From the NCBI GenBank assembly GCA_950295325.1, contig OX485806.1, positions 24,800,001-24,864,000 of the forward strand: DNA of 64,000 bases, written 5' to 3'. The translations under genes were made by a program, and so were the position numbers. Source of the stretch: Polytrichum commune (Eukaryota; Streptophyta; Polytrichopsida; Polytrichales; Polytrichaceae). This document shows positions 29,581 through 62,098 of the stretch, one piece after another (the first letter of the stretch is position 1; each line of letters begins with the position of its first letter). The notes beneath the pieces are model-generated. The model was given only the letters and a program-made list of their open reading frames with translations, was not told where the DNA came from and made no database searches.

Positions 29581-29593
29581 ACTTGTTAAGTAC

Positions 29594-30420: not shown

Positions 30421-30460
<40 letters not shown>

Positions 30461-43061: not shown

Positions 43062-45404
43062 TGATGAATAAATAAAATAAAATAAAATAAAATAAATAAA
43101 AGCAACGTCTGGGTTTCTTTTACCCTGACATGAATGGGAGCCCGTTCCTCTCCACCGTGATCATGTTTGACCAAGCGTCACCGTAAAGGGTACTTCCTCC
43201 CTCTCGGGAGGTGGGCTCCTTTAGTTTACTCAACGGTTCAATCCCTAGCCTCTAGGGGGGGGGGGGTCAACGGGGGGTTGTTTGTTATCTAGTTTTCTTT
43301 TGTTTAATATCAACTATGTGAGGTATTTAATGGCAATTTGGTGTAATTGTTTCATAAGCTTTTTGATATCTCTTTTAGGTATTTTAAGGTTTTCTAGTTC
43401 CTTAATTGGTTGTTCATGGATATCCCCTCTAACTCCGGCTATGATAGTGATGAGAGGGTTGACTTGCCACCCAACCGTTCTGAGTGTTTGGATGAGTGGG
43501 TTGTATTTCTCGGTTTTTTCCTTGTGTGCGGTATTTGGGAATCTGTCATGACAGTATGTGAATTCAATGAATTGTATGACGTTTGGTGGGGTTGGCGTTA
43601 GGGGAGGTTTGCTTTCGGAAGGGGCAACTAGTATGCATATATAGTATGTCTGGCATGAGCCTGGCTAGACATGTGCATGGTGTGGTATGGCATGAACATT
43701 GAAGTAACCATGTTGGGACTGTGTTGTCTTGTGGTCTGAGATTTTGGTTACTTGGATTTATAAGGGTGTAATATCTTGTATGTTTGCTTGATTGTAATGT
43801 ATGTACGATTTGGTGTATTGCGTTATTGTGTCGTGCTATACGCAATCCCTTTAAGTGTTGGTTTGAGCATATAGAGAGTAGGCGTGGCCATGTGTCTAAG
43901 GCATTATTAGGGCATAGTGTACAGTTTGGGTTTGGGTATATATTGGGCCAAAATATATGTTTACGGCGGTTACCCATGTATTGGGCGTATCGGAATTTTA
44001 GGGTTTGTGTAATTTGGGCGTCTGTTATTCGAGGGTTTTTACAGAATTGGTTGGAAAGTTTAGGATTGATTTGGTTGTTGGATGTCCATTTATCTATGTA
44101 TGTGAATTTGGATTGGGCCCACTTTAATTATTGATTTTTGTGTTCTTTGTTAACATATGTTTGTAGGTTCCGTATGGCACCCGTGTGTGTACCAATTGGG
44201 ACCCCGTTGAGCCAATATGGCGTAGTATGGGCCGTATGTATCCTAGGGGTGTTGGTGGGTTTGTCTAGGAGGGCTCCATTGTTTGTTAGCTAGTCCGCAA
44301 TTTCATTGCCTATTATTCATGTGTGTGCCCTGACTTTTTGAATTGTGATTTTGTGTTTGGACCATGTTATGTGGTTGACTATGGCGGAGATGAGTAGTTT
44401 ATCTGGGTGGTTATGTTGGGATGATGGATGTCTTATATGGTTATGTATTAGATATATACTGTTAAGGTTGTCTGTAAAGATGTGTGTTGTTGTGTTTCTT
44501 GAACTGCTATGAGGATGGTGTTTAGTTAAGCTCTAAGGATATTTTGTAGGCCTGGGAGTCTTTGTGCGATTCAAAGGTTGTTGGCGGGGCAATATACACC
44601 CGAGTTAGCTGTGTTCCCGACGTCGTTCTTGTCTGGGGGGATAAATGATCCGTCGGTGTATATGCATTGTTGGGGTTTGAATTTAAGGGGGTGGGTGTGG
44701 TATAGTTCTATTGGTAGTTGTTGTGTTGAGTGGGTGCTTTCCTGGTGTTCGTATATTGGGGCTTTATGCCATGCGTGGGATAGTTTCACTATTTTCTTAG
44801 AGGGGGTATTTTGTTGTGGGTGTATTTTGGCTTGGGTGTTATAAAGCTCAAGTATGGTGGTTGTGAGTGTGTTGGGTATTCTAGTTTTGCCTAGGGAGGG
44901 GTTTTGGTTCTGTATGCTAATTATGGTGGTGTATTGGTTTTCTAGTTGGATATTTTGGCCATTCCGTTGTAGGGTTGCATTGTATGGTGTTGGGCGGTAT
45001 GGTTGCTATTATGTGTACTTCTGCATGCGTCACTGGGAGGGGGTTTTCTTTATGATTGATTATGATGATGGTTGTGATATTGCGGTCTTCTCGGGTGGCC
45101 ATGCGGGCCCAATGGATGGATGTCATGGTAGTTTTGAGGTATGGAGGGTGGGCTAGGCCGCTACCTATCCATTTTGATGAGTGTGCGAGTCCTGTCGAGC
45201 CAAATAATACATCTCGGTTGTGTGGGGAGTTGTATTAGGTAAGTGTTATTGGGCATGTAAGGGGTGAGGAGTAGTATGAGTGTGTAATATTATATGTTTC
45301 TATTAGGACTTGTAGGGTGGAATGGTGGAGGGTTTGATGGCTATTATTTGGATTGTGTTTTTTTGGTCTTCTTTTTGGGAGGATTGTAATATATCTTTGG
45401 GTTA
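43062..45404 (-). pseudogene. Older Dualen-like retrotransposon, 3' half (piece 1 of the split element)
   Basis: Read on the minus strand from 45404 down, this is the C-terminal half of ORF2. A methyltransferase-like segment contains 'YYSSPLTCP' and 'LAHPPYLKTTMTSIHWAR' (45130-45290). RNase H follows with 'QQCIYTDGSFIPP' near 44660, then a CCHC module 'CTLCPNNALDTW' with 'RIARHN', and 'ARLMPDILY' of the restriction-like endonuclease (43564-43977). The 3' UTR follows, then a TTTTA-type tail. Frameshifts and stops are common, but the domain order equals that of 45405-57025. The piece stops exactly at the target duplication of that element and resumes at 57026. Confidence 0.9.
43066..43101 (-). 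repeat. 3' tail of the older retrotransposon, (TTTTA)n
   Basis: On the minus strand the 3' UTR ends 'gacgttgctttta' and runs into TTTTA repeats. Short simple tails are usual for non-LTR elements that prime on a nicked target. A GGGT-ACCC stem lies just before it. Confidence 0.7.
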
Positions 45405-46189
45405 AAGCTCTCTCTTCTCTCTCTTGTGGGATTCGGGATGAGGTGTTGCTAAGGGGCTCCGAAACCCTGGGGAGGTGAGTGACTGTGGAGTAGCCGCTGA
45501 GATCGGTGTGTGTGCTGCTAGGAGCTGGACTTGCAGTTACCCCGCACGCATTTGAGAACAGTTGGTCAGGGTGTTTGAAGAGGTGCTTAGAAGTGTTGGA
45601 GGGGTACGTGTGAATGCTCAGTATTAGATCCAAAAACTCAATCAGGTAGGAATGGCAGTTAGATTTCATGATTAGAGAATTCTGAAGAGCTGGGGCTCGG
45701 TTGGTAGCATTGTGATTGAAAACTCCATCCTCCTGTCTTGAATTCTCTAGATCTGAGATTAGAAGCACCACATTTGGGTGGAAGCGAAGCACCGAGGACA
45801 TAGACACACTGACACTCCCGGCCACTGCTCCGAACCAGGAACACATTGTCTAGAAAATAGATCATACATCACACAGAAGGAGCCTCCGGCTCCTTCTTTC
45901 TCTCATATACATCGCAAGCACATTCTCCCTCTTTCTTCAACCCAGCACAGACACATCCCCTATAGATCCAGTCTTTAACCTTAGTAGGTCACACAGCAAG
46001 TTAGATTTACTTGCAAGCAGGAGCAGCGATCCAAGAGCAGCGGGAGCAGAGGTCTACAACATCGATCTACACCGAGCGATAAGCGGCCCACCCCAAGTTG
46101 ACAAGACTGACCCTCACAACTCCCGGCGACATCATCAACAACTCCGAAATCAAAGATCTGACAGAGGAGAAACAACAGATCCGATCCCA
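45405..46189 (+). promoter_or_regulatory. 5' UTR / internal promoter region of the retrotransposon
   Basis: This 785-base leader is richer in G and C than the rest of the element. It starts with CT-rich DNA and contains a perfect hairpin 'aaggagcctccggctcctt' near 45880-45898. Full-length non-LTR elements must carry their promoter inside this leader. No TATA box is evident. The long minus-strand ORF across 45235-45846 is a junction artefact: only its last third is old retrotransposon sequence. Confidence 0.6.
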
Positions 46190-47932
46190 ATGGCCTTGTC
46201 GAAAGCCTTCGAAGTGGACGAAGACGTCATGGAGGTAGACTCTCCCTCTCAGAGTCTGAAAAAACTCCTAGCTGATAAGGCTAAGAACCAGCCCAAAGGA
46301 GCCGCAAGCGGGAAGAGGACCAGAGATCGTGTCGGGACATCCCCCTCCTCAACTTCCCAGCAGAGACAGTCGCCCCGAACAACAGCTCAAGGGCCGGAAC
46401 TCATCTCCAAACAGAAGCTCAAACTTTGGCTTGGGTTCGAGGCTATGGAAAAGCTTGCAGCAGAGCAAGGACTAGACGAGCTGTTCACTGACGAAACCAT
46501 CGCTGATAGAGTCACCAGAGGCATCCCCCGCAAAGAAGCAGAAGAACTAGAAAACGTAAGCATTTCCTACCCCAGAGTGCCGCAGATACTTTATCCCGGT
46601 GAGAGAAATGATGGACCCCCTGGGCAGCACCTTAACCTTACTCAACTCCCATCTGAGATTGAAACTGACCCTATCTCTTGCATGTCTTTGGACTTCCAAA
46701 TTGCCATTCATTTTCAGCTCCCTAACAACCCCCTCTTCCATAATCATGTAAAGGAGCTTGTTAAGAAAAGATTGAATACTATGCAAATTCCATTAGGCAC
46801 CAACCTTATTGAACCCATTTCAGTTTTATGCATGAGTATTAAGAGGGGTGGGGAAAAGGGAGTATGGGCTGGAATAGTCAAACTTCACCTCCTTCATCCC
46901 GAAACTGATGGAGTTGCCCTACTCACAGGCCTTAGACCCTTCATTCTCCACCTTGAGCCCCACTCAAATATTGGAAGCCTTGGTAAGGTGTGTAAATCAT
47001 ATCACTCAATTGCTCGAAACAACAACCTCTCCATCAAAATCTCTAATGACACATTGATTGGAGTGTCATCCCATGCCCTCTTTCTTGATATACTAGAAAG
47101 TAGTTTTAGAAGAGGCCATGATTTTGAGATAGTAGAGGTGCAAAAGAGCACCCCTAATAACCATGCTTACATTGTTGCTCCCTCCCCCCACCAAGCCAAG
47201 AAAATCCAAACCCTCCAAGTATCAACACATCAACTAATCCTTGAAGGCCAAGTGAAGAAAGGCCCCTCTCTCACCTTAGAGCAAAAGGTAAAGAAAGAAG
47301 CTCTTACCCTCACCTTCTACAACCTCCCCATCTTGATGAATATTGATGATACTTCTCTTGAAATTTGCAAAATTTTGGGAACCAAAAATGTTGTATCTAT
47401 TTGGTTCCACAAACAAGATGGCTTGAGACATAATGGAAGTGCAAATGTGGAATGCCTTAACCCCATTGTGTATAGGAAATTCGTAGGGAAAGAAGCAAAA
47501 ATCGGAGCTTACCATGTGGAAATTACCCCACACCGTCGAAGTCTTGAAGGTAATGAAAAACCCTCCAAAGAATTACTGGTCAAATTTGGTTTTGAAGATA
47601 CTAACATTTGTTTGGTAAACACAATTGAAGCAATCCAAAACCAAAGCCAAGGGGAAGCAAGTGCAACAAAGGGAGATGTTTTTATCATCATGAAGGAGGC
47701 AATTGAAGAAGGTAACAAAAAACTCAAAACCGAATTACACAAAGACATGAAGGATTTGAAAGATGATATAGTAAAAGAGGCCCACATCTACGCGGATGAA
47801 ATCAATGATAAATTGAAAAAGCAAATGAGGGACATCCAAAGCACTTTGACCTTGGCACTTACAGGAATGCAACAAATTACTGGCTTGGTAAGCCCGAACC
47901 TTATGCTAAACGACCAGCCAAATGTGGATTGA
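46190..47932 (+). CDS. ORF1 protein: RRM-like RNA-binding and coiled-coil protein
   Basis: 580 codons, intact. ORF1 proteins of non-LTR elements bind the element RNA and form the ribonucleoprotein that is reverse-transcribed. The first ~75 residues are basic and disordered ('GKRTRDRVGTSPSS'). Residues about 365-450 read like an RRM: 'LTFYNLP' as RNP2-like strand, a helix 'DDTSLEICKILG', and 'GSANVECL' as RNP1-like strand. An earlier segment (about 160-265) may be a second, diverged RRM. Residues about 500-560 are a charged heptad-rich coiled coil ('KDMKDLKDDIVKEAHIYADE') likely to oligomerise. No CCHC knuckle is seen. The ATG at 46190 follows a long leader and is the first in this frame with coding character. 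The stop overlaps the start of ORF2. Unlike ORF2 it is not G-poor at its 5' end. Confidence 0.85.
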   Translation: MALSKAFEVDEDVMEVDSPSQSLKKLLADKAKNQPKGAASGKRTRDRVGTSPSSTSQQRQSPRTTAQGPELISKQKLKLWLGFEAMEKLAAEQGLDELFTDETIADRVTRGIPRKEAEELENVSISYPRVPQILYPGERNDGPPGQHLNLTQLPSEIETDPISCMSLDFQIAIHFQLPNNPLFHNHVKELVKKRLNTMQIPLGTNLIEPISVLCMSIKRGGEKGVWAGIVKLHLLHPETDGVALLTGLRPFILHLEPHSNIGSLGKVCKSYHSIARNNNLSIKISNDTLIGVSSHALFLDILESSFRRGHDFEIVEVQKSTPNNHAYIVAPSPHQAKKIQTLQVSTHQLILEGQVKKGPSLTLEQKVKKEALTLTFYNLPILMNIDDTSLEICKILGTKNVVSIWFHKQDGLRHNGSANVECLNPIVYRKFVGKEAKIGAYHVEITPHRRSLEGNEKPSKELLVKFGFEDTNICLVNTIEAIQNQSQGEASATKGDVFIIMKEAIEEGNKKLKTELHKDMKDLKDDIVKEAHIYADEINDKLKKQMRDIQSTLTLALTGMQQITGLVSPNLMLNDQPNVD

Positions 47933-47933
47933 C
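47927..47933 (+). promoter_or_regulatory. ORF1/ORF2 overlap, possible reinitiation site
   Basis: ORF1 ends GAT TGA, and the next open frame begins within the same bases (ATTGAC), shifted by one base. No ATG starts the downstream frame here. TTG at 47929 is the first possible near-cognate codon. Some non-LTR elements translate ORF2 by termination-reinitiation at overlapping stop/start codons. A -1 slip is the alternative. Confidence 0.4.
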
Positions 47934-49539
47934 CACAAATCGCCGAGGCAAAAAGTATTTATTGCAATACTCCACTGTATACATACACGTATACAGATAT
48001 AATATTATACACAGAATACATACTAGAATAAATACTAAATACCACAATACTACACATGGTATTCTTCAATGTCCAAAATACTATTTGAAAAACAAATACA
48101 AATTCTGTACCTCATACCTGTACAAACTCCATCAAAAAAAGACCCAACCAAAATACAGTACCCATCCAAAATACAATATCTACTCAAAATACAGTTTCCA
48201 TCCAAAATACAGTTTCCATCCAAAATACAGTTCCCATTCAAAATACAGTACCCATCCAAAATACAATACCCACCCAAAACATAGTACTAACCCAAAATAT
48301 AATACCTACCGGCCTCGCCACATAACTAATTACAAACACCACTTCACAAACAATTGGAAACCTAACTCAATACCAAATCAAATACCTAAAAACTATGCAA
48401 AACCACACCCCTTACCCAAACAACAAGAAAACATAATACCCACCCTACCCAACATTTTCTCTACAACAAAACTTGCACTCATTAAATATCAAAAACTAAA
48501 TAAGAAAAAACCAAAAATACGTCACTTATATGGATACTACTTCACTACATCAAGCACATCAAGTATGTATCAAAAATCTACCCACAAACCAAATTACACT
48601 AATCACCCATACAATAACAACTACCCAAAATACACTTTCCGAACAAAATACAACACCCTCCCAAAATATACCTCTCATCCAAAACACAAAACACAAAGGC
48701 CTCACCCAAAATACAGATATTACCCAAGAAATGAATGCCACCCAAAATACAAAGCATACCCAAAACATAGCTTATATCCAAAACAAAGACCACATCCAAA
48801 ACTCAAACTCCATCATAAACACCCCCCCCATCCAAACCTTAACCTCCATCCAAAAATTTGCTTCCAAGCAAAACTCTACTTCCACTCAAAATATAAGATT
48901 CATCAAATAAACAAAATGGCCTCGGCCTACCAACCTCGCCACAAAACAAAGTACCGATATAACTCCACAAGCAAGAGGAAGCCTCACATAACACACACCC
49001 TACCCAACCATTCTACCACAACTAAAAACGAACACATAAAATACCAAAAAACAAACAAAAAGCCACAAATAATCAACTCCCACCCAAACCTCAAACCCTA
49101 TCCAACACTCCACTGCAAAGTAAAACTCAACTTTCACTCAGAACACAAAATCTGCCCCAAAAACCAACCAACCTCAGCCTACCAGCCTCACCACAAAACT
49201 ATTAATAAATACCACCCCACAAACAAATGGAAACCTAACAAAACAACAAACCACACACCTAAAGACAACACATACACACACTTTTCATCCATACATTTAG
49301 GAAACATAATAGCCAATCCCTCTACCGTACCCAAACTCGTACCCATAAAACACCAAAAAGCAAATAAAAATAAATCAAAAACACTCAACCCATACCCATA
49401 CCAAAACCTCAAACCACACCCAAAACTTTGCCTCACAGCACAACCTCACTTCCACACAAAACACAAAATTTCACCCAAAAGCAAATGGCCTCGGCCTACC
49501 GGCCTCGCCATAAAACTAATAACAAATACCACTTCATAA
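47929..49539 (+). CDS. ORF2 N-terminal repetitive region (upstream of the 2A motif)
   Basis: 536 codons without a stop, extremely rich in Lys, His, Tyr, Pro, Asn and Thr and poor in Gly, Asp and Glu. Two repeat levels are visible. (1) Hexapeptides of the type 'HPKYSF', encoded by 18-bp units, in two blocks (about 48140-48300 and 48600-48900). (2) A module beginning 'SAYQPRHKT...NKWKP' and ending 'IKYQKTNKKKPKI', seen at about 48301, 48916, 49168 and, in the next frame, 49486. No known domain is recognised. It lies before the ribosome-skipping motif, so it would be released as a separate basic protein, possibly nucleic-acid binding. The frame is lost near 49480, where the fourth module continues in another frame. 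Confidence 0.7.
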   Translation: MTTNRRGKKYLLQYSTVYIHVYRYNIIHRIHTRINTKYHNTTHGILQCPKYYLKNKYKFCTSYLYKLHQKKTQPKYSTHPKYNIYSKYSFHPKYSFHPKYSSHSKYSTHPKYNTHPKHSTNPKYNTYRPRHITNYKHHFTNNWKPNSIPNQIPKNYAKPHPLPKQQENIIPTLPNIFSTTKLALIKYQKLNKKKPKIRHLYGYYFTTSSTSSMYQKSTHKPNYTNHPYNNNYPKYTFRTKYNTLPKYTSHPKHKTQRPHPKYRYYPRNECHPKYKAYPKHSLYPKQRPHPKLKLHHKHPPHPNLNLHPKICFQAKLYFHSKYKIHQINKMASAYQPRHKTKYRYNSTSKRKPHITHTLPNHSTTTKNEHIKYQKTNKKPQIINSHPNLKPYPTLHCKVKLNFHSEHKICPKNQPTSAYQPHHKTINKYHPTNKWKPNKTTNHTPKDNTYTHFSSIHLGNIIANPSTVPKLVPIKHQKANKNKSKTLNPYPYQNLKPHPKLCLTAQPHFHTKHKISPKSKWPRPTGLAIKLITNTTS

Positions 49540-50495
49540 ACAAATGGAAACCTAATGCAATAACAAATCACATAACTAAAGACAACACACATACACACTT
49601 CTTACCCAAACAATTAGAAAACATAACACCCGCCCTACCCAACCTCTTTACCACAGCCAAATTCATAACAATAAAATACGAAAAAACAAATAAGAAAAAA
49701 CCAAAAATACTTCACTTCCGTGGATACTACTTCATCAACAAGTTAACTCTACTACAATGTGGAGACATAGAACCCAACCCCGGACCAATGCCTAATGTTC
49801 TCCGGACACACCCCGCTACACACAAAAAGCGAGCTAAACTATATTTCATCCCAAACACAATAAAATTACAACCCGAATACCAACACATAGCAAACACATT
49901 TGCCCCCATATTCAAGCACACACACCCCCTACACCACCACACAATCACTACATACCCACACCTACACCAATACATCATAACACAAAGTCATTCCCCGCTA
50001 ACCCATATGTTATATGCTCTTACCATTACTATACACCCCTCAATAAACACATGCAACAATATACTAGCCCAACCCCATATTTATCACTTTAACAACATAT
50101 GGACAAACACATTACTCATCAGACTAGCCAACCTTTCCAACCCCCCCGAGCGACACATTCTAACACCACACCCATACACAACATTTACAAACAATAACCA
50201 AGATATAATACACCCCAAAAATTCAATACATAAAGAATTATATAAATTTATCCACAACCAAGAGATCACGCTTACACCCACCACTCTTCAAAGCAAATTC
50301 CCTTTTATCCCAAATCAATTAATAACTGAATCACTCCGTTGCCTAGAAAATATTAACGAATACTCACACCCGCCCCCACCCCCAGTCACCCCCACACCAG
50401 AGCCTAGAACCAACACTAACACCAATCACGAAACAAATATAATAACTTGGAATGCCTCCTCACTCAACACCGCACTACCAAAACCTAATCAATAA
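49428..50495 (+). CDS. ORF2 segment: fourth N-terminal module, 2A motif, linker, start of AP endonuclease
   Basis: The real sequence in this frame begins near 49480 with 'MASAYRPRHKTNNKYHF', the fourth copy of the N-terminal module. It reaches 'INKLTLLQCGDIEPNPGP' (2A motif, ending 49787). The following ~215 residues are His/Thr-rich with no domain I recognise. At 50436 the AP-type endonuclease starts with 'NIITWNASSLN', the usual first strand and Asn. The frame ends at 50495 because of a one-base shift near 50485. The endonuclease continues in the ORF at 50452. Confidence 0.8.
   Translation: MPHSTTSLPHKTQNFTQKQMASAYRPRHKTNNKYHFINKWKPNAITNHITKDNTHTHFLPKQLENITPALPNLFTTAKFITIKYEKTNKKKPKILHFRGYYFINKLTLLQCGDIEPNPGPMPNVLRTHPATHKKRAKLYFIPNTIKLQPEYQHIANTFAPIFKHTHPLHHHTITTYPHLHQYIITQSHSPLTHMLYALTITIHPSINTCNNILAQPHIYHFNNIWTNTLLIRLANLSNPPERHILTPHPYTTFTNNNQDIIHPKNSIHKELYKFIHNQEITLTPTTLQSKFPFIPNQLITESLRCLENINEYSHPPPPPVTPTPEPRTNTNTNHETNIITWNASSLNTALPKPNQ
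49743..49787 (+). other. 2A-type ribosome-skipping (StopGo) peptide motif
   Basis: Codons spell LTLLQCGDIEPNPGP, matching the D(V/I)ExNPGP consensus with the usual hydrophobic run and Gly before it. In known 2A peptides the ribosome fails to join the last Gly and Pro, so two proteins arise from one frame. The predicted break is between 49784 and 49785. It sits between the repetitive N-terminal region and the enzymatic polyprotein. A decayed relic of the sequence just before it ('KIRHLYGYYF') is visible at 48514-48543. Confidence 0.85.
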
Positions 50496-51084
50496 CTCTC
50501 TAAACAATACAACACTCATACATATCCAAGAAACCAAACTTACAGCAAACAAATCCACAAAATACATACAGAACCTATTCCCTGAGTTCAAACTCATTTT
50601 TAACAACACACATGCTCTCACAAGATGCATACAACAAAGATTGCCCTACACCCCTGGAAGAGGCGGCCTACTTACACTTATCCATAACAAGTATGCATTC
50701 CCTGGAAATGTCATCAAAATTCCCACGCCAGCAAACATCTCCCCGTATTTACAAATAATCAAAATAAATAACCATCCCTCAATACCATGGCTAATCGTAC
50801 ACATGTATATGCCCACACACTTAGAAAACACAGGCCTTATTCCATTTCTCAAAACCGAAATCACTAACCAAATCACTACAAATCCAAACCACATATACAT
50901 ACTATGTGGTGACTTCAACACAGACATTACACTCCAAGGAAGACATACTAACAACACTTATACCCCTCCCCAAGAAGAGGATCTACAATGGAAACACTTT
51001 ACCACATCTCTCAACCTTGAATACATACCAACTAACACCAGTTTTTCCCGACAAGGGGCTATAATTACACATCAACAAGTCTAA
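50452..51084 (+). CDS. ORF2 segment: AP-type endonuclease
   Basis: Exonuclease-endonuclease-phosphatase fold of non-LTR elements, which nicks target DNA to prime reverse transcription. Visible motifs: 'IHIQETKL' with the metal-binding Glu (50530), 'WLIVHMYMP', and 'ILCGDFNTDI' with the catalytic Asp-x-Asn pair (50905-50928). The last motif, 'SDHYPV', lies in the next frame at about 51159. The homologous region of the older copy at 7.1-7.6 kb confirms the joined reading. The frame is lost near 51060 by a one-base change. Confidence 0.85.
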   Translation: MPPHSTPHYQNLINNSLNNTTLIHIQETKLTANKSTKYIQNLFPEFKLIFNNTHALTRCIQQRLPYTPGRGGLLTLIHNKYAFPGNVIKIPTPANISPYLQIIKINNHPSIPWLIVHMYMPTHLENTGLIPFLKTEITNQITTNPNHIYILCGDFNTDITLQGRHTNNTYTPPQEEDLQWKHFTTSLNLEYIPTNTSFSRQGAIITHQQV

Positions 51085-51146
51085 TAGACGGTTTCTACAT
51101 CCAATCTCCAGACAATAGCAAATTTACTTCCACTACAAACACAACC

Positions 51147-52052
51147 ATGAACCTAAACTCAGACCACTACCCAGTCACCTTACACATCCCACACAACACA
51201 CTTATAGCCAGACCCCCACCCCCCACAAACATACCACCAAATAGAATACTAAATCCGATACCACCAGAAAACATAGAAAAATTTAACATAACATTCTTCG
51301 AAGAAAACTCTACACAACTAAAAGAACTTACCACACTACTAGAAAATCATCAATACTTAACCCCTGATCAATGGCAAGAAGCCTGCACTTCATTAGATAA
51401 CATTATTAACAAAATTTCAGAAACTATTGAAAAAACCTGTAAAGCCGCCCCACTACCCAACCTCACGTACAGAACATCACAACAAGGAGGGTTTCTACCA
51501 CAAAAACTAGCTAAAGAGTGGAAAAAACACCTTACCACATACCACCTCATTAGGAAAACTATATACATTACAGAACACGACCCACACTGGCTAACCCACC
51601 CCATCCTAAACGAAATCCGAAACCACCAATATGTAAGTATCCCACACCCACCCACAACAACCACATCTACTAATGAATGGATTAATGTCATAGCTGTCAT
51701 TGCAAAAACTGCCAACAAAGAAGCCAGAAAAATCACCACCAAATACACTAAAGACTGTATACTAAAAGCTGTATCAAAATACCGTCAGATGTATGAAAAG
51801 AGTCCCAAAAAAATAAACAGAAAAGTCTTCAAAAACTCCGAAACCTCACTTCTGGACTCCATCATGGACAGACACAACAATACACTAACTAACCCTAAAG
51901 ACATCGCATCAGAAATATACACACAACAATCCATTAGTAACCGCCCAACAGTCCCCACATGCCACATGCCACTACCAAAATACCCACCCACCACATTGCA
52001 CATGCGGAGTAAGGCAATATCCATGGCACGACTTAGACGGATACATAATTGA
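51147..52052 (+). CDS. ORF2 segment: end of AP endonuclease and linker to reverse transcriptase
   Basis: The meaningful frame starts near 51060 ('SLIDGFYI') and runs into 'MNLNSDHYPVTLHI', whose Ser-Asp-His is the final catalytic motif of the endonuclease. A ~250-residue linker follows. It includes 'KEWKKHLTTYHLIRKTIY', also recognisable in the old copy at 6.2 kb. The frame becomes wrong after 51962 because of a 7-bp tandem duplication (CACATGC twice, 51956-51969). The true continuation reads 'HCTCGVRQYPWHDLDGY' in the frame of the reverse transcriptase, so the last ~30 codons here are out of frame. Confidence 0.8.
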   Translation: MNLNSDHYPVTLHIPHNTLIARPPPPTNIPPNRILNPIPPENIEKFNITFFEENSTQLKELTTLLENHQYLTPDQWQEACTSLDNIINKISETIEKTCKAAPLPNLTYRTSQQGGFLPQKLAKEWKKHLTTYHLIRKTIYITEHDPHWLTHPILNEIRNHQYVSIPHPPTTTTSTNEWINVIAVIAKTANKEARKITTKYTKDCILKAVSKYRQMYEKSPKKINRKVFKNSETSLLDSIMDRHNNTLTNPKDIASEIYTQQSISNRPTVPTCHMPLPKYPPTTLHMRSKAISMARLRRIHN

Positions 52053-53658
52053 CAAACGAGGAGAACCCCAAACTCCCCTACATACATACTTTGACCAAGA
52101 AACCTACGACTTTTGTCTCAAAAATCTAGGAAATAACAAAGCCCCAGGCCCTGATAAAATTCCCAATTCAATTCTAAAAAATATGCCCCCACGTTTCCAC
52201 AAACTACTCTTCCTATTCTTTAAACAATGCTACAAACAAAAACAAATTCCCGCATCATGGAAAACTAGCCTAACAGTTTTATTATACAAAAAATGAAATC
52301 CATCAAATCTTACAAACCACAGGCCTATTGCACTAGCTAACACCATATATAAACTTTATACAAGCACATTAACTTCTATACTATCCGCATACGGTGAAAG
52401 ACACCAAATACTACATGATAGTCAAGAAGAATTCAGAGCAGAAAGAAGTACCTCTAGACAAATTCAATTACTTATCGCAGCACTAGAAGACGCAAGATTC
52501 ACGAATCAAGACATATACATACTCTATATCGACTTCAAAAATGCCTTCGGCTCCATTGACCATGCCAAACTCTTAGCCATAATGAAAGATCTAGGATATC
52601 CCACTGACTCCATACACCTCATAGGAAACATATACGCACAATCCTCCACCATATATATCGGGGAACACTTCGACAAAACCTTACCGATCCCCATCCAAAG
52701 AGGTACAATACAGGGAGACACTCTCAGCCCATACTTATTTATAATATTTTTAGAACCCCTCCTTAGATGGTTACAACAAGGGGACAATGGATATACTTTT
52801 GGTACATCCAAAACCAAAATCTCATCAGCAGCATATACAGATGACCTAGCGGCAATTGCCAACAAACTAGAATCACTACAAACACAACTAAATAAATTAG
52901 ACAAATTCTGTGAATGGGCAGGAATGGATCTCGGAATACCCAAGTGTGCAGTGACTGGATGTCCAAACAAATCCAAACTGAATCCCATAACTTTCAAAGC
53001 CCTAATCCAAGCCACTAACATAAATTATCGAAACCAACCTATACCAACCCTACATCAACACGAACCATACACCTATCTAGGAATAAACCTTGCACCCTCA
53101 CTCAAATGGAAAACACAAATAAATACCACTATAGCTAAAGTAATCAAACAATGTCAAGCTCTCATTATATGCCCAGCAACTATGAAACAAAAAATCAATA
53201 TGGCAGATACAGTCATACGTGCTGGAATAGCATACAGCTTCTACGCAGTACCATATTCCATACCGGCTATCAAAAAACTTGACAAAAGAATTATAGCACT
53301 CCATAAAACGATATGCGGAATACCCAAATGTACATCTAACATTGCTACACAACTCCCGCATAACCTATTCGGCATCGAAGCATTCTCACTACAAAATGCC
53401 TATTTAAGATGTATAGGAGAACAACTACAAAATGCCCTAAATGATAAAGGAAGAATTGGCAAAATCTATGCCGGCCTAATACAACACATACTTGCCAAAT
53501 ATGGAGGATCTAAGGATTTAACCCGCATTAAATACCACCACTGTGTCAGATCACCTATCACTAGAACACTATTCTTGCTCAAGCATAAAGCCGGAGTCCA
53601 CCTAAAAAGTACTATAAACAACTTCCTACTAAATCCATCCTCACTCGAAATTGCGTAG
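51970..53658 (+). pseudogene. ORF2 segment: reverse transcriptase with two stops
   Basis: One frame carries the whole RT: 'GNNKAPGPDKIPN' (52131), 'HRPIALANTIYKLY' (52321), 'EFRAERSTSRQIQLL', motif A 'ILYIDFKNAFGSIDH' (about 52522), motif B 'QGDTLSPYLFIIFLEPLL' (52711), motif C 'AAYTDDLAAIA' with YTDD instead of the usual YADD (52834-52845), motif D 'CEWAGMDLGIPKCAV', and 'YTYLGINL' before the thumb. A TGA at 52294-52296 interrupts 'YKK-NPSN', where relatives usually have Gly. A TAG ends the open stretch at 53656-53658, but homology continues past it. It copies the element RNA into DNA at the nicked target. The related older piece at 62258-62593 has YADH. Confidence 0.9.
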
Positions 53659-54276
53659 ACTCAAGAAGCACAAGAACTACACGGCCTAAGCCCAAACACT
53701 TCACTTAAATTACTACACAAATTGCTAGAACATAATATAATAAAACTAGACCAAATAACCATGCCTAATGGCACCACTCTAATGAACTCAGACGAATTTA
53801 AAATCTACCATTCCAACCCTTCTAAAGTCATCAAAAGTGCACTAAACATTGCTAACCAACTATTTTGTCACCCACCCTGTGACCAGGAATGCCCCCTAAC
53901 ATGTCAACACCACCATCCACCACGATCCCTCAAAACCAAATACACAATAAGACACCAAAACATCCTACCTCATTTACCGACTCCCCCTATACACCCTCCA
54001 AACCCTTCCATCCCCCATCTACCCCCTCCTTCCAACAACATGATTAAAAACCCCCGACAATTTCCCATACACAAAATACTCGATCACAAACAACGACAAT
54101 CCAACGACCCTAACGGAATAAAAAGAACAGTCACATCATACTTATGCCAATGGACTACAACAAATAACAATACATATAATAAATGGCAAACCCAAAGAGA
54201 CTTATATCCCTATTGTGATGCCAATACAAACAACCACAACACCGACCTACTCTCCCAATACTACACAGGAAAATAA
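53659..54276 (+). pseudogene. ORF2 segment: post-RT region with Cys/His cluster
   Basis: Same frame as the RT, between the TAG at 53656 and a TAA at 54274. After an RT-proximal helical part there is a dense cluster, 'CHPPCDQECPLTCQHHHPP' (53866-53922), which looks metal-binding but fits no standard zinc-finger spacing I know. A Pro-rich stretch follows. No enzyme motif is seen. Confidence 0.6.
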
Positions 54277-55350
54277 CACAAACATTTCCTAAACATTATT
54301 AATGCCTACTTCTCCATAGAACAACAAAGAGACACAAGACACGTCACACCTACCACAATTATTCCACTGGCACACATTTCTATTAATGAATGCAATCCAG
54401 AAAATGACATCGAAACAAATTCTGACACTATCCAAATACAATTTGACGTCGCTCACATATACGAAGATAGTGGCCGACACCTCATCACCATCCCAAAAAC
54501 TAGATTAATATGGTTATGGCAACAATATCAACAAACAGAACATTCCACTCACAGACTAGAACCACCTACCCAATCATTCGAAACTGAAATTGTATGGCTA
54601 TACCAAAGATACAAATACCGCATTCCGAAAAATGACCCACTCAAACGAGCCCAATACACAATTCCAATCCCAATATTAGATCTCTTAATAACCACATTTA
54701 ATATCAACCACTCATATTTTTCATCTCCAGTTACATGCCCCACACAATTCACCCAATTCTACTCACCATTCGCACGAGACATAATATTTGGATCCCTCGG
54801 GAAAGCATTTGACCATAAATGGCAAGGAATTGGCTACGCCCACCCCCACAACGCAACGGAATTACAACAAGCTATCCACTGGGCTCGCCTGACAGCCAAA
54901 AACGACCCATATACAATCACTATACTCATATCACCGGATACTGATTGGTACAAAAACTTCAACCCATACATAGGTCCATTCCAAGACACGCACGTTATCG
55001 CCCACTTTGCCGCCGATACGATCACATATGAGGAACCCACAATACCCCCAGAACTCAATACTACAAGGAAAGAACCATCTACTATACAAATATTCTGCAT
55101 CCACCATCAAACCAACAACATTGGTACTTACGAACAAATGAAGCAACTCAAGGACCTAGCAAATAATCTCCAAATAACACAAAGTCACACCCAAATTGCA
55201 CCACCCACCCCTTCAAATACCACTGTTAACCCCAGTAAAAAATGGTCTAAATTAAACTACCCACAAATAGTCGCACATAAACACCACACTTGCCCCACAA
55301 CTCCCAAATTACCAGACAAATCTACCTCTAAAATTCCACCCACAATTTAG
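54277..55350 (+). pseudogene. ORF2 segment: methyltransferase-like domain (inferred)
   Basis: Still in the RT frame, with no stop until 55348. A conserved block runs 'HSYFSSPVTCP' (about 54709), 'RDIIFGSLGKAF' (54775), 'KWQGIGYAHPH' (54817-54849), 'IHWARLTAK', 'YTITILISPDTDWYKNF' and 'VIAHFAADTITYEEP'. The older copy at 45.1-45.3 kb reads 'YYSSPLTCP', 'RDVLFGSTGLA' and 'LAHPPYLK'. The plan (ASP-like motif, D/F-GS, W, [N]PP[YF]-like motif, then a W-terminated strand) resembles Dam-like and PCIF1-like adenine methyltransferases, with HPPY in place of NPPY. In this copy the motif is AHPH, so activity is doubtful. It could also be an unrelated domain. Position between RT and RNase H is unusual. 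Confidence 0.45.
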
Positions 55351-56812
55351 CTACTACACTGACGGTTCCTTTATAAAACCCAAAGAAATTGCCCCTGGAG
55401 TATGGAGAAGAGAAAGAGCTGGATATGGTATTTATAGCCCCAAAGGTTTAAATATTACCAAAAGACTACATGGACATCAAAACATATTACGCGTAGAAAT
55501 GATAGCTATACACAAAACACTAAGAATAATCAATACACAATATCCTAACGAACCCGCATTCATATTCACAGACAGTCTAAATGTATTATACCTACTCAAC
55601 ACACAAATTAAACACCCCACCCTTCATAATAGCCACCCAGACCAAACCACACTTGCCTCCATGGTACAAATACTTCAACACCGGACACAACCAATCACAT
55701 TACACAAAGTTAGAGCACACGTCAACATTGACGGCAACGAAAAAGCCGATAAACTAGCAAAAGAAGGATTAGAATTAGAACACAGAGTTGCCACCCACCC
55801 ATATGAACATGCCCACGCCACCCCATACTATTACCAAAAGGATGTCTGGGCCTCGATGATAGACGTTCCAGACAAAGGTCCAGTCAAATTCTTAGAGAAA
55901 CAAATTAAAAAATATGACAGGGAAAATAACCTAGCAATCATGGCCACACACACCCCCAACATTTGTAAATGGACAGAAAATGTAGATATAGACAAAGAGC
56001 TGTCGAACGAATTTTGGGAAAATCCTTCAATCACCGACAAACAAAAATCATGCCTCATTAAATTCCGCACAGGAACTTACATGGGTAATGCTAGGAAACA
56101 ACTGTTTTTCGGCTGCCAAAGATATCCCTCTATTACGTGCCCCATATGTAACTCAAATGAACTAGATACATGGCTACATGTACTACTTACATGTAAACAT
56201 CAACATATACACTCACTTCGAGTTAAAAGACATAACAAAGCAGTGGGGGAAATTAGGAAACTCTTAATCTCATCCGAAAAATCCCGATGCTTTATTCTCA
56301 TGAATGTTGGCACCTTCAATAACAATCCTCAAGAAAACACAGTTCCCAATTGGCTACTCCCCTGCACATGTGGTACACAAAGATGCCACTGTAACGCAAG
56401 ATTTAGACCTGATATCCTTTGTGTTAGGGGACTACCATATCAAAACGTCCCTCCCGTAGACATTGACCCTAACCTCACCATACAATTTATTGAATTTACA
56501 TACTGCAATGACAGATTCTCCCCAGAGGCAGTTGAAGCAAAAAATAACAAATACAGACCACTAATTGCTAGTATCGCCTCCAGAGGATGGAAAATCGAAC
56601 CACTTATTGTCATCACTGCTGGTGCCAAAGCTACTGCTCACATCCCATCTATGAAATTACTCGAGACTAACTTCAAAATGCCTATGCCTACCATCAAAAA
56701 TACATTTAAAAATATTAATACCATCGCAATACAATATGCCATGTCTATCCTCCTCCACAAAAGGAGAATAGAAAACCACCAACCGCTTCCCCTCACTCTA
56801 GACCCCCTATAA
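55329..56812 (+). CDS. ORF2 segment: RNase H, CCHC module and restriction-like endonuclease
   Basis: Open to a TAA at 56810-56812, entered by a shift near 55330. RNase H: 'YYTDGSF' (first Asp, 55361), 'RVEMIAIHK' (Glu, about 55493), 'FIFTDSLN' (Asp, about 55570) and 'KVRAHVNIDGNEKADKLA' (His and last Asp, about 55708-55760), so all catalytic residues are present. A CCHC module follows: 'CPICNSNELDTWLHVLLTC' (56138-56194) plus 'RVKRHN', very like the module before the R2-type endonuclease. Then 'RFRPDIL' (56399), 'IEFTYCNDRF' (about 56490) and 'KNNKYRPLI' give a PD-(D/E)-XK-type restriction-like endonuclease. In the domain family this enzyme nicks target DNA. It coexists here with the AP endonuclease. 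Confidence 0.85.
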
Positions 56813-57025
56813 CTCAAAACTTAAAAGTTACAGGTAAGGGTCACTGGGTATAATATAAGGTGTGGTTCCGTGTTACTGGTTTCTTGTGTCTAAAGTGTCT
56901 ACTCTCGAAAGGGGGGAGTAGATCTTTTCCTCCATACCCTTGTCCTGTGGGCATGGGATTGGAGGTGGATCGAACAGACACTTAACTCACGTCGGTCTCC
57001 TCCGGAGACCGAAGTTGTTTCTCTC
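56813..57025 (+). promoter_or_regulatory. 3' UTR of the retrotransposon with terminal hairpin
   Basis: 213 bases. 'ctctcgaaaggggggagtag' and 'cccttgtcctgtgggcatgg' are shared with the short element at 39.4 kb. A perfect 8-bp stem with a 3-nt loop (CGGTCTCC-tcc-GGAGACCG, 56993-57011) lies 14 bases before the end. 3' stems are recognition sites for the reverse transcriptase in several non-LTR groups. The tail is CT-rich, with no poly-A. Confidence 0.65.
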
Positions 57026-57295
57026 TATCTTTGGGTTAGCCATAGTATTTTGGTGGCAAAGTCTTGTGGTGGGGGGTTTAGAAAGTGGGTCATAGGGTGC
57101 ATTTGGTTTTTGTAACGTAGTTGGAAGTAGAATTTGCAGCAATAAAAGGATAAAATCATATTTATACTTCGAGTCCATTGTCTTGTGGTTGTGTATTGTT
57201 GTATCTTGTAAGTCTGATTGTGGATTGTGACATTGCCAATTGTAGAATTTACTGTGTTAATGTGACTATGGGTAAATAACAAATGCAGGGATTAC
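57026..57295 (-). pseudogene. Older Dualen-like retrotransposon, piece 2
   Basis: The minus strand continues the element interrupted at 45404: 'NPPPQDFATKILWLTQRY' matches 'EPPTQSFETEIVWLYQRY' of the 11.6-kb element. Homology fades beyond about 57200-57290. Confidence 0.8.
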
Positions 57296-59247
57296 TCTAA
57301 GTTGTTTGTGTCTAACTTTGATTTGCTGGTCTTGCCTCATTCTAATTGCAACCTTTTAAGTCTATTCGTGCATTATTTATCGGGTAAGGCAAGGACCATA
57401 GGCAATCGAATATGCAGTAATTACCAAGTTAGGAATAAACTTGTTTGTTATTGCCTCACCGAATTAATTATAGGGAATGTAATAGCAAGGTGAGAGGTTT
57501 CGAGGCCATTGTCTGCGAGAGATATGGTTCGAGAGAATAGCCTTAGGTTCTGCTGATCATTACAGATAACGATGTCGGGTAGAGAGGGGTCCGCTTTGGG
57601 AAAGCACTGGGCTTTTGGCTGCAACTAGATTTGCTTGCCGGACCGTCAAATCTTCTTGTCTTCAAAAGTCTCGGTCTTCAATTTCTTCAAAAATTTAACC
57701 TCTTTCCCATTGGCCTATCATGTTGCGGCTCTAAACGGGTTAAGGGTAAGGGTAGGGTAATAAGAAAACACAGGCCTCGGACAGGTAAAACAGGATGTCA
57801 AAACACGAGCTAACGTCCGACAAATTGGCTCCTAAACTTTCAAACCCACGGTGACCAGCAATCGCGCCTCACCAATGGGAACAATAGAATACAACCTTGT
57901 GGGTCATCAATCCCACTTCGTTGTCACAAACACGAAATGAGGTTTTTATGGTTTCCCACAAAAAAACCCGCAACAGTTTTACGATGCAAAGAAATTCAAG
58001 TACAACTAGCCTCCAAATCCGGCTGGGAATCACAAACCACAACACACTTGAATCAGGGTTGTCTATCCCGACGTCATGACGGTGTCGTGCCGTCATGACG
58101 TGTCGTGTCGTGACAGAGGGGTCCGTCACGACACAATAAGGTCCACGTAGGGTCAACCTAGGGGGCAGCTAGTAGGGTGGGTAAAATACTTACCTTCTTG
58201 CCAAGGTGGCGTCGTATGTGGCAGAAAAGGCCGACGTGGACGTGGATATGCCTAGCGCCAGGTAAACCATTTTGCCATTCTGTTATCATTCTGTTAAAAT
58301 CAAAGTAGTAAAATATGACTAAGGAGTGTGTGGAGCGGACGGGGGACGAGGGTGGGGCGGACGGGGGGGGGGGGGGTGGGAATGGGGAAGGAGTCACCCT
58401 TACTGACCGATTCCTTCGCCCTCGTCCATCAATTTTCTTGCCTCCTTGTGAGACCAATGTTCCAGATTCATCCCCTGACAATGCGGCAACAATGGCATGC
58501 CTAAGATTGGATTCAGAATTGAAAACAACACCCAGCTTGCTGAAGTTGATGGCCTCGAGGATGAGGCAGCCACGGCCACATTCTGTTGGTGTTTGATCCA
58601 ATACGCCAAATTCCTCCCTTCCCTGTTCACTTCTCGCCCCAAATGCTAGTTCCTTGCTGAATTGTGTTCGGCATCCTACGTCCCGCATCAGATCCATTTC
58701 CTAGCCTCCTAAAGGTGGATGCACCGGCAGGCTCCAGCCCCCTGTACCCCTTGCCTCTCGGCTGCCATCTCTCCTTCAGGTCATCCTCCTGATATTCCTC
58801 AAAATAGCAGAGAGAGAGCTCTCCCCTAGAGGCCGGCCTCCTTCCTCCGCCCTCGAGGCACACACCCCTGTTTTCGAACCACACAGAGAGTCTCTCTCTC
58901 TCGCCCTCGAGATCCAGGTCCTCCTCCTTTGCACAGAATCCGGGGTTTATATTCAAAACCCCGGGACCCATCCCTAAATGGACTGAGAGGGTCCCAATTC
59001 GAACTCTAAAACCCTGAATTGCAATCCTCGTCTTGAGCTTACCTGCTTCTCATACCCCCTAAATCAATTAAGCTAACCTTCTAATTCTCTAATCACTCGA
59101 AAACCTAGCCTTAACCTAACTTTGGTCTACCCTACCAAACATCACTCTTTTTATGTTTTGAATAAATAAACTAAGATCAAAATCAAATATCAAAAAATCC
59201 CTAAGGGTTAATGACACATGTGGGCACCGTTTTTTGGCTCACACTTT
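57296..59247 (-). mobile_element. Probable LTR (minus orientation), boundaries uncertain
   Basis: At 59247, read on the minus strand, the sequence starts TGTGAGCC...GGTGCCCACATGTG. It closely resembles the starts of the LTRs at 60077 and 62994, including the short palindrome. On the minus strand a TATA-like GAATATAAAC lies near 58946-58955, followed by CT/GA-rich leader sequence. The other end is not certain; TGTCTAAC at 57314 would make a ~1.93-kb unit. ORFs of 114 and 179 codons (58158-58971, minus) are Pro-, Arg- and Gly-rich without a motif. A poly-G run lies at 58363-58376. Confidence 0.45.
58071..58101. repeat. Perfect 12-bp inverted repeat ACGTCATGACGG
   Basis: The arms 58071-58082 and 58090-58101 flank the 7-nt loop tgtcgtg, itself repeated downstream. 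The arms contain TGACG/CGTCA words like plant bZIP (TGA-type) sites. It lies in the putative LTR. Confidence 0.7.
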
Positions 59248-59529
59248 GGTATCAAGACAAAAATGGGTTACTCCTACAAGACTATTGACTATGGTTGTGC
59301 CTATGCTTGCGCACCGCACTTGGTCCAATTAAAATGATCTCACTGCCAGTCTATTGACCGGGTAAACAAAGTGAGGTGAGTGACTGTCATAAATGCATGT
59401 ATATTTTGGAGCGCTTCAAAGTTTTTCCCCATCTCTTTGACCTAATAATCAATCTTAATCCGAAATGGAGTGAAATAGCTTTGTACTTCCTTCAACAAAA
59501 CTTATCTGAGACACCTAGATGATATATAG
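59248..59529. other. Unassigned interval between LTR-like block and retrotransposon piece
   Basis: It contains TTTGGTATCAAGAC at 59249-59262, similar to a plant LTR primer-binding site, but on the wrong side for the minus-strand LTR start. Nothing else is recognised. Confidence 0.3.
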
Positions 59530-60076
59530 GCCACCTTTTAAGTCTTCCCTGATTGTTACCCTGGTTGTTGTTGAAGCCAAAAACTACACCACAGTGATAT
59601 ACTACATGCTTGATATTTTAGGCGGGGGAGGTGGTAGGACCCTCCATATTTTGTTGTGATATATTTGGTTAGGCCTTGGTAGATTTGGCCTAGTTGGCCT
59701 TGGTTGTTAAGGGCATTTAGTAATTGTTCACTAATATAGTTGATGTATTCAAGGAGGAGGGATGTGGTATAAATGCCAAAATCCTCGTTGGGAAGGTGGG
59801 TGAGTATGTTCGCTGTGCTTTGGGGTAGGTTGCATATTTCTTTGGTTAGCTTACTAAGGATTTTGTCAGATTTTTTGATGTCTGGTTTGGAAAATGGGGC
59901 TGCATAGTAGGCGTAGGCTATTCTTGGTTTTAACACTGTGTTGAGGATGTGTATTTTTTGCTTAATCGTGGCTAGGGATATCATTAATAGTTTGCTTTGT
60001 TTTTTGGCTTTTTCAAGGGTATTATTTTTTTGGATGTTCCACTTTAGGGAGGGGACAAGATGGATGCCAAGGTATG
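59530..60076 (-). pseudogene. Older Dualen-like retrotransposon, piece 3 (RT thumb region)
   Basis: The minus-strand ORF of 59556-60101 reads 'HTYLGIHLVPSLKWNIQ', 'KPRIAYAYYAAPFSKPDIKK', 'EICNLPQSTANILTHLP' and 'KYGGSYHLPRLKYQ'. These match residues just after RT motif D of the 11.6-kb element. It is cut at 60076 by the solo LTR and resumes at 62099 ('EPYT'). It is collinear with the pieces at 43-45 and 57 kb, so probably part of the same old element. Confidence 0.85.
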
Positions 60077-60393
60077 TGTGAGCCCAATATTGTGCCCACA
60101 TTTGAAGTTAACTTTAAGAAAACAACAAAACCTTAGGATTAGTAATTGTTTTGAGTTAATTGAGAGTAGACAAGGATTTAAGCTTCAGAAGTTACATAGA
60201 GTTAAGTTAAGGGACAATTCTAGGACACCTAGTTGAAAAACCAAAAAGAAATTAAGTTGTTAATTATGTATTAGGAGAGTCTTAGGCTAATAGTGCAAAA
60301 GGTCAAGGAAGGCTTCCGGAAGGAGCCAACCGGAATTAAGAATGTCAGCTGAATTGTAGTTAGGTTTTCATAGGGCTCCCGGGAGTCGGAGGC

Positions 60394-60424
<31 letters not shown>

Positions 60425-62098
60425 GACGCAGTGCTGCTGGTTGCCGGAGCCAGGCGGAAGCGCTTGCGAAATTGGGACCTGGTTGAGAGCTGGGAATGCG
60501 AGAAACAGGAGGGAGCAGGCAGTGGCAGAGCGCCACTAGGCAGGGAATTCGGCAGCAACCACATCTTGTGGACAGATTGGGAGCCTTCCCAAGGTCCGAC
60601 TAGGGAGTAATCTGGAGGTGGCCACTGCCTCGAAGCATAAACCAACATCGTCGACGAACCAGGCCAGGTGGGAGCGGCAGCTTGTCAATGCGAGGTCAAC
60701 GGTGATCTCGAGCTCATGAGGGTGGGTTGTCGGTGAAGAAGTCAGCTCGGGGACAGTTCACGAATGCCATACTTGTGAGGGGCGGCCACTTAACAGTTGA
60801 GAGGAATCACCGCTAAAGTGGGCGGTTTAAGCTCCCGAGGGAGACAGACGGTCCTGGAAGGTTCACTGATGGTCCTTCCGATGTGGATGGTGGTTTGGTT
60901 GCGGTTCCTGTTTTATTTTCTTAGTTGTTGCTGTTGTGAGTTCTTGGGGTGAGCGCTGCTAATCGGAATAGAGGAGGCTTGCGGTGGAGGGGTAAACTAA
61001 TGCCGTTTTGAGGTGGCCAACTTCTTGAGAGAAACTTGGCAGAGTTTGGAAAGGAAGTTGGGTGTGAGCTACGGCTGCCAGGAGGGAGCTGGCTACAAGC
61101 GAGTGGCGACTGTGCTGGGGATGAGCCGAAGCTACAAAACCAACACCTCTGTAGCAAGCCATAGTATTCCGTGGGGATTACGCCCAGTTGTTGCTACTGC
61201 AGAAGGTCAGCAGGACGAGGAGAGGCTGCATAGGGCATTCACAACCACTATACTCACCTGCACTCGGGTCCAGGAAAAATTCACATGGCTGCCAGCATTG
61301 AATCACAGGTGGCAGCGCATGGATTTTTGGCACTAAACCCAAATTGATTTATGCAGTGCCCACTCACGAGTGCAGCGGTAGTTGGTTTCCTCTTTATCGG
61401 ACAATGGCAGAGGCAGGTGTAGCCTTCAATGCCGCAGCTAGGCAGGGCTCTAAAAGTGAGGGAGTGATAGGTTCATCTGGGCAGGAGGAGAGCAAGGTGG
61501 TAGCGAGCTGGCCCAAGACAGAGCAGAGGTGATCAGAGGCCAACACTAGAGTGGGTTGGCTGCAGGAACGAGGAGAAGTGTTGTTGGAACAGGGGCTATG
61601 ACTCCCCCCCCCCCCCATCACAACTCGGTACACTGGGGAGCTGTGGAGCTCAAACCAGGTGGCGAGAGGGATTATGGGCACAGGGGAGGAGACCAACAAT
61701 TAGTAATAGGAAAATAATCCGGGCAGTTAGGGTGTTAAGTAGGACATAGGGGGTGTGATTAGGTGGGAATTAGTTGATTTGAATTGTGAGCACGAGAGAG
61801 TTGTGTGTTACCTCAGCTTGACCTTTAGGCTACTAGGAATTAGATTGTGTGACTAGACGAATGCTTAAGTGTGGAAGTTGGATTTGATGAGTAACAGTGT
61901 TTTGTAACACTCATAAAAGGTGAACATTAATGAATGTTGGCCACTCATTTTTGGTTGAATAACATTGCATGAGCTGTATTCATATCATTGACACAAGGGG
62001 AGTAAGTTCCAATGGTGTAACGAGGATACTTAACTTTGTGTGAGTCATAAGCCTTCACCCGGATTACGACGCATAAGAGTGGAGATTTAGGGTTGACA
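60077..62098 (+). mobile_element. Solo LTR, 2022 bp
   Basis: It begins TGTGAGCCCAATATTG and ends GATTTAGGGTTGACA (TG...CA). It is flanked by identical 5-bp duplications GTATG (60072-60076, 62099-62103), and the host reading frame (retrotransposon RT) resumes across it. No second copy of the start is present inside and there are no gag or pol motifs, so it is a solo LTR or an extreme deletion derivative. It contains a (TC)n tract at 60393-60424 and a 13-nt C run at 61604-61616. ORFs of 60-125 codons inside are not recognised. Confidence 0.85.

Follow-up and report, generated by a model that had tools for sequence, protein, structure and literature searches.

A probable Dualen/RandI-type retrotransposon with two endonucleases and a PCIF1-like domain in a land plant genome

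Long interspersed elements (LINEs) of the Dualen/RandI group are described as carrying both kinds of endonuclease, apurinic/apyrimidinic (AP) and restriction-like (PMC3636483, PMC4640811). RNase H is also listed for the group (PMC4640811), and Dualen has been reported in Chlamydomonas relatives (PMC8226300). For green-algal RandI elements, 3' tails made of short repeats are listed, (ATT)n and (CTATTT)n among them, and the LINEs given for flowering plants are L1 and RTE (PMC3747384). R2 elements insert in 28S rDNA (PMC4117753). LINEs of trypanosomes (L1Tc) and sea urchin, described as AP-endonuclease type (Odon et al. 2013, cited in PMC4981915), resemble the element studied here in having a 2A motif, D(V/I)ExNPGP, within a retrotransposon polyprotein (PMC4981915), to which the present element adds a second endonuclease. 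This element lies in a 64,000-nucleotide stretch of contig OX485806.1 (positions 24,800,001 to 24,864,000), hereafter the window. It is very probably a non-long-terminal-repeat (non-LTR) retrotransposon of the Dualen/RandI, dual-endonuclease type, which a land plant carries in numerous copies that fall into several subfamilies.

The element is like Dualen/RandI in combining both endonucleases with a reverse transcriptase (RT), RNase H and short-repeat 3' tails, here (TATC)n. It differs by its land-plant host, its 2A peptide and its PCIF1-like domain, and in that no cysteine protease was found. To our knowledge, dual-endonuclease LINEs otherwise come only from green algae. The description by Kojima and Fujiwara in 2005 reportedly includes a cysteine protease in Chlamydomonas Dualen, which we treat as accessory, and is not known to include a PCIF1-like domain; a 2A motif is likewise not known from the group, the activity of the peptide here being predicted from its sequence. 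No report of the group in mosses was found among the literature matches listed. R2 elements, which are not known to carry an AP endonuclease or RNase H, share with this element the RT, a zinc knuckle and a restriction-like endonuclease similar in sequence and predicted fold, whereas the present element has a second endonuclease, RNase H and flanks that vary between copies.

Architecture, copies and insertion

The second open reading frame (ORF2) specifies, in order, a 2A peptide, an AP endonuclease, an R2-like RT, a PCIF1-like domain, RNase H, a CCHC zinc knuckle and a restriction-like endonuclease (Table 1). In the window copy ORF2 is broken, its pieces being spread over three frames with stops and shifts. 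Sister copies with an uninterrupted ORF2 of 2,625 codons, however, indicate that the domain layout is real and not an artefact of decay. The preliminary description of this DNA, made from its letters, had proposed this order of motifs, and the order holds in a single frame in the intact copies. Its 2A motif is likewise present, and is retained in 11 of the 14 distinct copies examined that cover the position. The strand that encodes ORF2 (window 47933-56812) is very low in G (6-12%) and high in A and C, and ORF1 is unlike it in this respect. A Pfam search assigned ORF1 to no family, its sole match being at chance level (0.082).

The genome searched comprises 407.8 Mb in 64 contigs, seven of which, of 42-78 Mb, make up 406 Mb. 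A DNA search with the RT gave 649 candidate places, of which 40 were scored: the window, four at 94-98% identity and 35 at 86-88%. Ten copies of the sister subfamily were fetched whole, and three of these (L022, L024 and L028; L018 is the same copy as L022 and is counted once) have both frames open, with 747 amino acids in ORF1, 2,625 in ORF2 and all domains of the latter in one frame. These three copies differ from one another by 0.38-0.66% over 7.9 kb, and their differences are spread about equally over the three codon positions, the pattern that drift would produce in insertions from a recent burst. One intact sister copy has 84.6% DNA identity to the window element over 7.4 kb. Two partially read sister copies outside the ten (L014 and L017) are broken, and the four closer copies, which belong to the same subfamily as the window element, are also broken in the stretches read. 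Between subfamilies, all nine segments tested show purifying selection, with ratios of nonsynonymous to synonymous substitution rates (dN/dS) of 0.05-0.18.

An 11.6-kb retrotransposon bounded by an exact 13-bp target duplication had been proposed, and both the duplication and the empty site bear this out. When the element is removed in silico, the tblastn match to an older minus-strand relative, in its PCIF1-like region, continues across the junction. Because the empty site reads through, the boundaries are right, and this is stronger proof than the duplication itself. Since one older relative spans both flanks and reads through, it was into this relative that the element inserted.

The 3' end could be recognized in nine of the ten whole sister copies, as a GC-rich stretch followed by a (TATC)n tail whose unit number varies. 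After this tail come 11-13 bp (in one copy 15 bp, including tail letters) that recur upstream and are candidate target duplications, the longest sequence upstream of the tail that matched exactly being chosen. The upstream repeat adjoins the start of similarity in L026, L032, L036 and L038 only, the others being candidates, and L028 has two equally long matches. L032, L036 and L038 are 5'-truncated, and sister copies sit at varied flanks. Target-primed reverse transcription is known to leave such traces, namely varied flanks, 5' truncation and duplications. The window element terminates differently, and the fold of its 3' end does not differ significantly from that of shuffled sequences (z -0.91); the sister copies have another hairpin-like GC stretch before their (TATC)n. 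Sister copies (L022-L041) that share about 99% identity elsewhere diverge upstream of ORF1, which would fit an exchange of 5' modules.

Endonucleases, reverse transcriptase and relatives

The preliminary description had claimed two endonucleases, and motifs, folds and relatives now support both. The three AP endonuclease motifs sought co-occur in 12 of the 15 distinct copies examined that reach the region, and the domain exceeds the Pfam cut-off in the related proteins P0003, P0005, P0006, P0007, P0009 and P0012. The restriction-like part has no Pfam match in the window copy. When it is profiled with nine related rows, a search of PDB returns R2 proteins only (4.6e-12), and its predicted fold resembles the R2 endonuclease. 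The segment with the CCHC knuckle and this endonuclease has a dN/dS of 0.08.

Related proteins were sought with residues 930-1900 of the sister protein among 5.8 billion proteins, and 17 were found. We examined eight long, unnamed metagenomic relatives (P0002-P0005 and P0007-P0010). All eight have the RT, a C-terminal motif of the RPD type (RPD...E) and a PCIF1-like domain that aligns. PF12237 matches seven of them (P0007 just under the cut-off, P0008 not at all), and Pfam detects RNase H in all except P0007. Some carry extra domains: OTU (P0002 and P0003, under the cut-off), Ulp1 (P0003 and P0005) and PHD (P0004). Josephin and a chromodomain are further additions in P0012, a protein of Haematococcus lacustris whose gene model is chimeric. 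The chromodomain-like stretch of the window element stays weak; P0002 (5.1e-5) and P0003 (0.0071) both score under the Pfam Chromo cut-off, and the examined pieces of P0004 and P0005 gave no Chromo match. The closest relatives of the window segments reach 90% identity for RNase H to endonuclease and 89% for the PCIF1-like domain, and are mostly from environmental sets; close kin are therefore widespread.

Compared with PDB structures, the RT is closer to R2 (3.6e-22) than to L1 (6.1e-11). Its motif reads YTDD in the window copy and YADD, in one case YVDD, in the other copies examined. A first tree has 20 rows and draws its references from R2 (three rows) and L1 (two rows). In it the RTs of the window element and of the sister subfamily group with rows labelled dual, in a fork of twelve rows with support 93/95. 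Two of the twelve rows so labelled, P0006 and P0011, have RT and AP endonuclease and no C-terminus, where a second endonuclease would lie. P0012, absent from the first tree and present as a chimeric gene model in the second, falls inside the dual group at 91/98, on a long branch. P0015 was left out of the second tree as a long branch, and P0016 and P0017 yielded no RT segment. The L1 pair is set apart with support of 99/97 in the first tree and 99/95 in the second, and the R2 rows are weakly resolved, forming no single clade in the first tree and one with 78/52 in the second. The RT thus lies outside the R2-type and L1-type references, which number only three and two, in trees with few references and some long branches. 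The preliminary description had held that grouping within a single-endonuclease clade such as L1 would undo the assignment. The RT is indeed separate from R2 and L1, although the rows compared are R2, L1, mostly unnamed relatives and one Haematococcus protein.

What places the element with Dualen/RandI is that both endonucleases occur with RT in one protein (in one frame in the three intact sister copies), together with RNase H. We class it as of Dualen/RandI type, found in a host range new to that group; it has an ORF1, a 2A peptide and a PCIF1-like domain, the last of which also occurs in environmental relatives. Several observations count against this assignment. Clade membership is judged from the domain architecture, from unnamed relatives and from a single Haematococcus protein; ORF2 of the window copy is disrupted; and no Pfam protease match was found in the window pieces or in the intact sister protein P0001. 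The AP endonuclease of the window copy scores 4.2e-3 and 5.1e-3, under the Pfam cut-offs, and P0001 gave no AP endonuclease match in a Pfam search at E up to 1. Only four of the eight long relatives pass that cut-off (P0003, P0005, P0007 and P0009); P0002 and P0010 show the motifs, and P0004 and P0008 begin too late to contain the N-terminal part. Finally, the activity of the 2A peptide and the role proposed for the PCIF1-like domain are predictions from sequence, and either endonuclease might cut first.

The weak AP endonuclease scores of the window copy and P0001 would suit an element of the R2/NeSL/Utopia type, in which only the restriction-like endonuclease works and the AP endonuclease is a relic. 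This is very improbable in view of the persistence of the three motifs together across copies, the dN/dS of 0.11 in that segment and the relatives that pass the Pfam cut-off. Still less credible, to the point of being almost negligible, is a plant L1 that picked up extra domains, or a chimera produced by nested insertions. Plant L1s do carry RNase H (PMC4640811), and the window does contain nested relatives, but the RT tree and the structural comparison separate this RT from L1, and the intact sister copies carry all domains in one frame. We read the RNase H residues in the translation as D-E-D-H-D with the histidine present (KVRAHVN), whereas the archaeal-like RNase H of plant L1s has arginine instead (PMC4640811). 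A plain L1 was rejected on the RT tree, and a spurious reading across nested insertions on the intact sister copies and the empty site. The 2A motif could also be ornamental, with ORF2 made as a single protein. The case for 2A here is built from sequence, and 2A requires a suitable upstream context (PMC4981915), yet retention of the motif in most copies and a dN/dS of 0.11 in the surrounding segment make an ornamental motif improbable.

The PCIF1-like domain

A "methyltransferase-like" domain between RT and RNase H had been noted earlier as an addition of this element. The domain is there, but it is specifically PCIF1-like and is not unique to the element. In the window it matches Pfam PCIF1_WW (1.3e-10), and its predicted fold matches PCIF1, the cap-specific N6,2'-O-dimethyladenosine (m6Am) methyltransferase also called CAPAM, at 14-17% identity. 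The model has a predicted local distance difference test score of 61 overall, and of 70-85 by blocks (residues 61-110 and 131-220). Because the eight long metagenomic relatives share the RT, the PCIF1-like domain and the restriction-type motif, the domain is a property of the element group, not of this host. The PCIF1-like domain of relatives is already visible in precomputed database domain lists. One protein that is 55% identical to the window segment, P0039, is named as coming from an archaeal metagenome-assembled genome (Candidatus Nitrosocosmicus sp.), and is probably plant DNA in an archaeal bin.

The fold is like that of PCIF1/CAPAM, but here it is embedded in a retrotransposon polyprotein and NPPF, the catalytic motif of PCIF1 (PMC8868631), is replaced. 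NPPF occurs in none of 126 homologous rows with letters at this position (120 listed of 235 homologs plus ten alignment rows, minus four blank), in a table that drops letters inserted relative to the reference. AHPHN is the usual reading in rows of the host type, and AHPPN or AHPPY was read at other host loci. Searching 138 proteins directly for the pattern likewise gave no NPPF; five of them have NPPY, in a stretch that follows the domain.

We lean towards the view that methylation has been lost from the PCIF1-like domain, which would instead hold RNA. That this RNA is the element's own capped 5' end, bound through its cap, is a more tentative suggestion, which we consider less likely than not. 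Alternatively, the domain might be catalytically active, methylating adenosine in RNA or at its cap and so marking the RNA of the element itself. Such activity would fit the predicted retention of the fold and the purifying selection (dN/dS 0.11), and four relatives have NPEY at the motif position, keeping its N and P; these might still be catalytic, which weighs against a domain that only binds. Set against this are the absence of NPPF from all 126 rows, the AHPHN, AHPPN and AHPPY of the host, and the location of NPPY outside the domain, so that an active enzyme seems unlikely. It was dropped as the first choice once the NPPF motif proved to be lost.

No report of a PCIF1-like domain in retrotransposons was among the literature matches listed; others may exist elsewhere, for instance in surveys of adenine methyltransferases. 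A paper on N6-methyladenosine and human LINE-1 mentions PCIF1 (PMC8324889).

Host, neighbouring sequence and proposed mechanism

A land-plant host, widening the range of the group, had been put forward conditionally, and the genome itself agrees. The plastid contig is 146,561 bp long, and the 20 kb read has a GC content of 28-30% and contains an uninterrupted rbcL followed by accD, with psaB-psaA, ycf3, rps4 and ndh genes in a row (genes named by reading). A miR166 locus scores just above the Rfam cut-off (61 against 60 bits), and miR166 is a land-plant microRNA. The host is a land plant, most likely a bryophyte to judge by its plastid features.

Table 1. Features of the element and of the older relative that it interrupts (window positions)
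Feature	Position	Strand	Evidence or remark
Older relative, 3' half (PCIF1-like, RNase H, endonuclease)	43278..45404	-	tblastn 39-51%
Target-site duplication, 5' copy TATCTTTGGGTTA	45392..45404	.	exact 13-bp match with 57026-57038; joined flanks restore older relative
Complete element	45405..57025	+	11,621 bp non-LTR retrotransposon; target-site duplication, empty site, comparison with other copies
5' untranslated region (approximate)	45405..46189	+	precedes first long ATG frame
ORF1, 580 amino acids	46190..47932	+	open frame; 38% identity over 548 aligned positions to sister-subfamily ORF1
Start of ORF2 region, repeat-rich, A/C-rich	47933..49721	+	18-bp tandem repeats (48142-48299); partial duplications of pre-2A module
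2A peptide GYYFINKLTLLQCGDIEPNPGP	49722..49787	+	consensus D(V/I)ExNPGP; motif ends 49787
AP (exonuclease III-like) endonuclease, two frames	50441..51190	+	motifs QETKL, CGDFN, LNSDHYP; dN/dS 0.11
Reverse transcriptase, R2-like	52129..53091	+	RVT_1 1.7e-28; dN/dS 0.05
RT C-terminal extension	53092..53655	+	94% amino acid identity to sister subfamily, last 151 codons; dN/dS 0.06
Weak chromodomain-like stretch	54067..54204	+	PF00385 E 0.078 and 0.023, under cut-off
PCIF1/CAPAM-like (cap m6Am methyltransferase family) domain, catalytic motif replaced	54277..55200	+	
HPHN at PCIF1 NPPF position	54841..54852	+	alignment and translation
RNase H	55349..55771	+	PF00075 1e-13; dN/dS 0.08
CCHC zinc knuckle	56138..56194	+	three C and H invariant in 10/10 rows
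Restriction-like endonuclease, RPD...E...K	56405..56809	+	
3' untranslated region	56813..57025	+	GC hairpin 56993-57011, then short pyrimidine tail
Target-site duplication, 3' copy	57026..57038	.	exact match with 45392-45404
Older relative, rest, itself interrupted	57039..62995	-	tblastn 45-55%
Older relative, segments	PCIF1-like start 57126-57039; RT C-terminus 60092-59604; RT 62995-62099	-	

The older relative in the flanks has 39-55% protein identity overall, parts only of 57039-62995 being covered. It is apparently broken at two further places, 59604-62099 and 57126-59604, one of them GC-rich and about 2 kb long. Another relative, more diverged at 31-50% identity, lies at window 2970-7658 on the minus strand, with AP endonuclease, RT and PCIF1-like pieces; base skew there is strong and opposite, which fits a minus-strand relative. 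Elsewhere the window contains a 346-bp inverted repeat of 98.6% identity (6338-6683 and 8170-8515), long self-complementary stretches resembling miniature inverted-repeat transposable elements (29591-30700 and 31570-31900, the first with relatives at 41553-41863) and a tandem array of 2.9 copies of a 307-bp unit (25348-26223).

In the mechanism that we propose, the element's RNA would be translated into the ORF1 protein and ORF2, from which 2A would split off an N-terminal leader. The remaining enzyme would then bind the 3' end of the RNA, one endonuclease would nick a weakly specified target and RT would copy the RNA from the nick, as in target-primed reverse transcription. The other endonuclease would cut the second strand 11-13 bp away, RNase H would remove the RNA template and the PCIF1-like domain would act as a non-catalytic binder of RNA, perhaps of its cap. 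A broader and more speculative scenario, which we regard as doubtful, is that an ancient LINE lineage took up the fold of the PCIF1 cap adenosine methyltransferase, lost catalysis and uses the resulting reader of capped RNA within its integration machine, where it might check or protect the full-length template and help to coordinate the two endonucleases; this lineage would span algae and land plants and have been recently active in a bryophyte.

Dual-endonuclease LINEs have been taken as evidence on how AP-endonuclease LINEs arose from the restriction-like kind (PMC4640811). Their presence in a land plant, where intact copies are nearly identical and candidate places number in the hundreds, makes it possible to test how the two endonucleases share the work. 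The PCIF1-like domain is an unexplained tie between dual-endonuclease elements and the biology of the mRNA cap.

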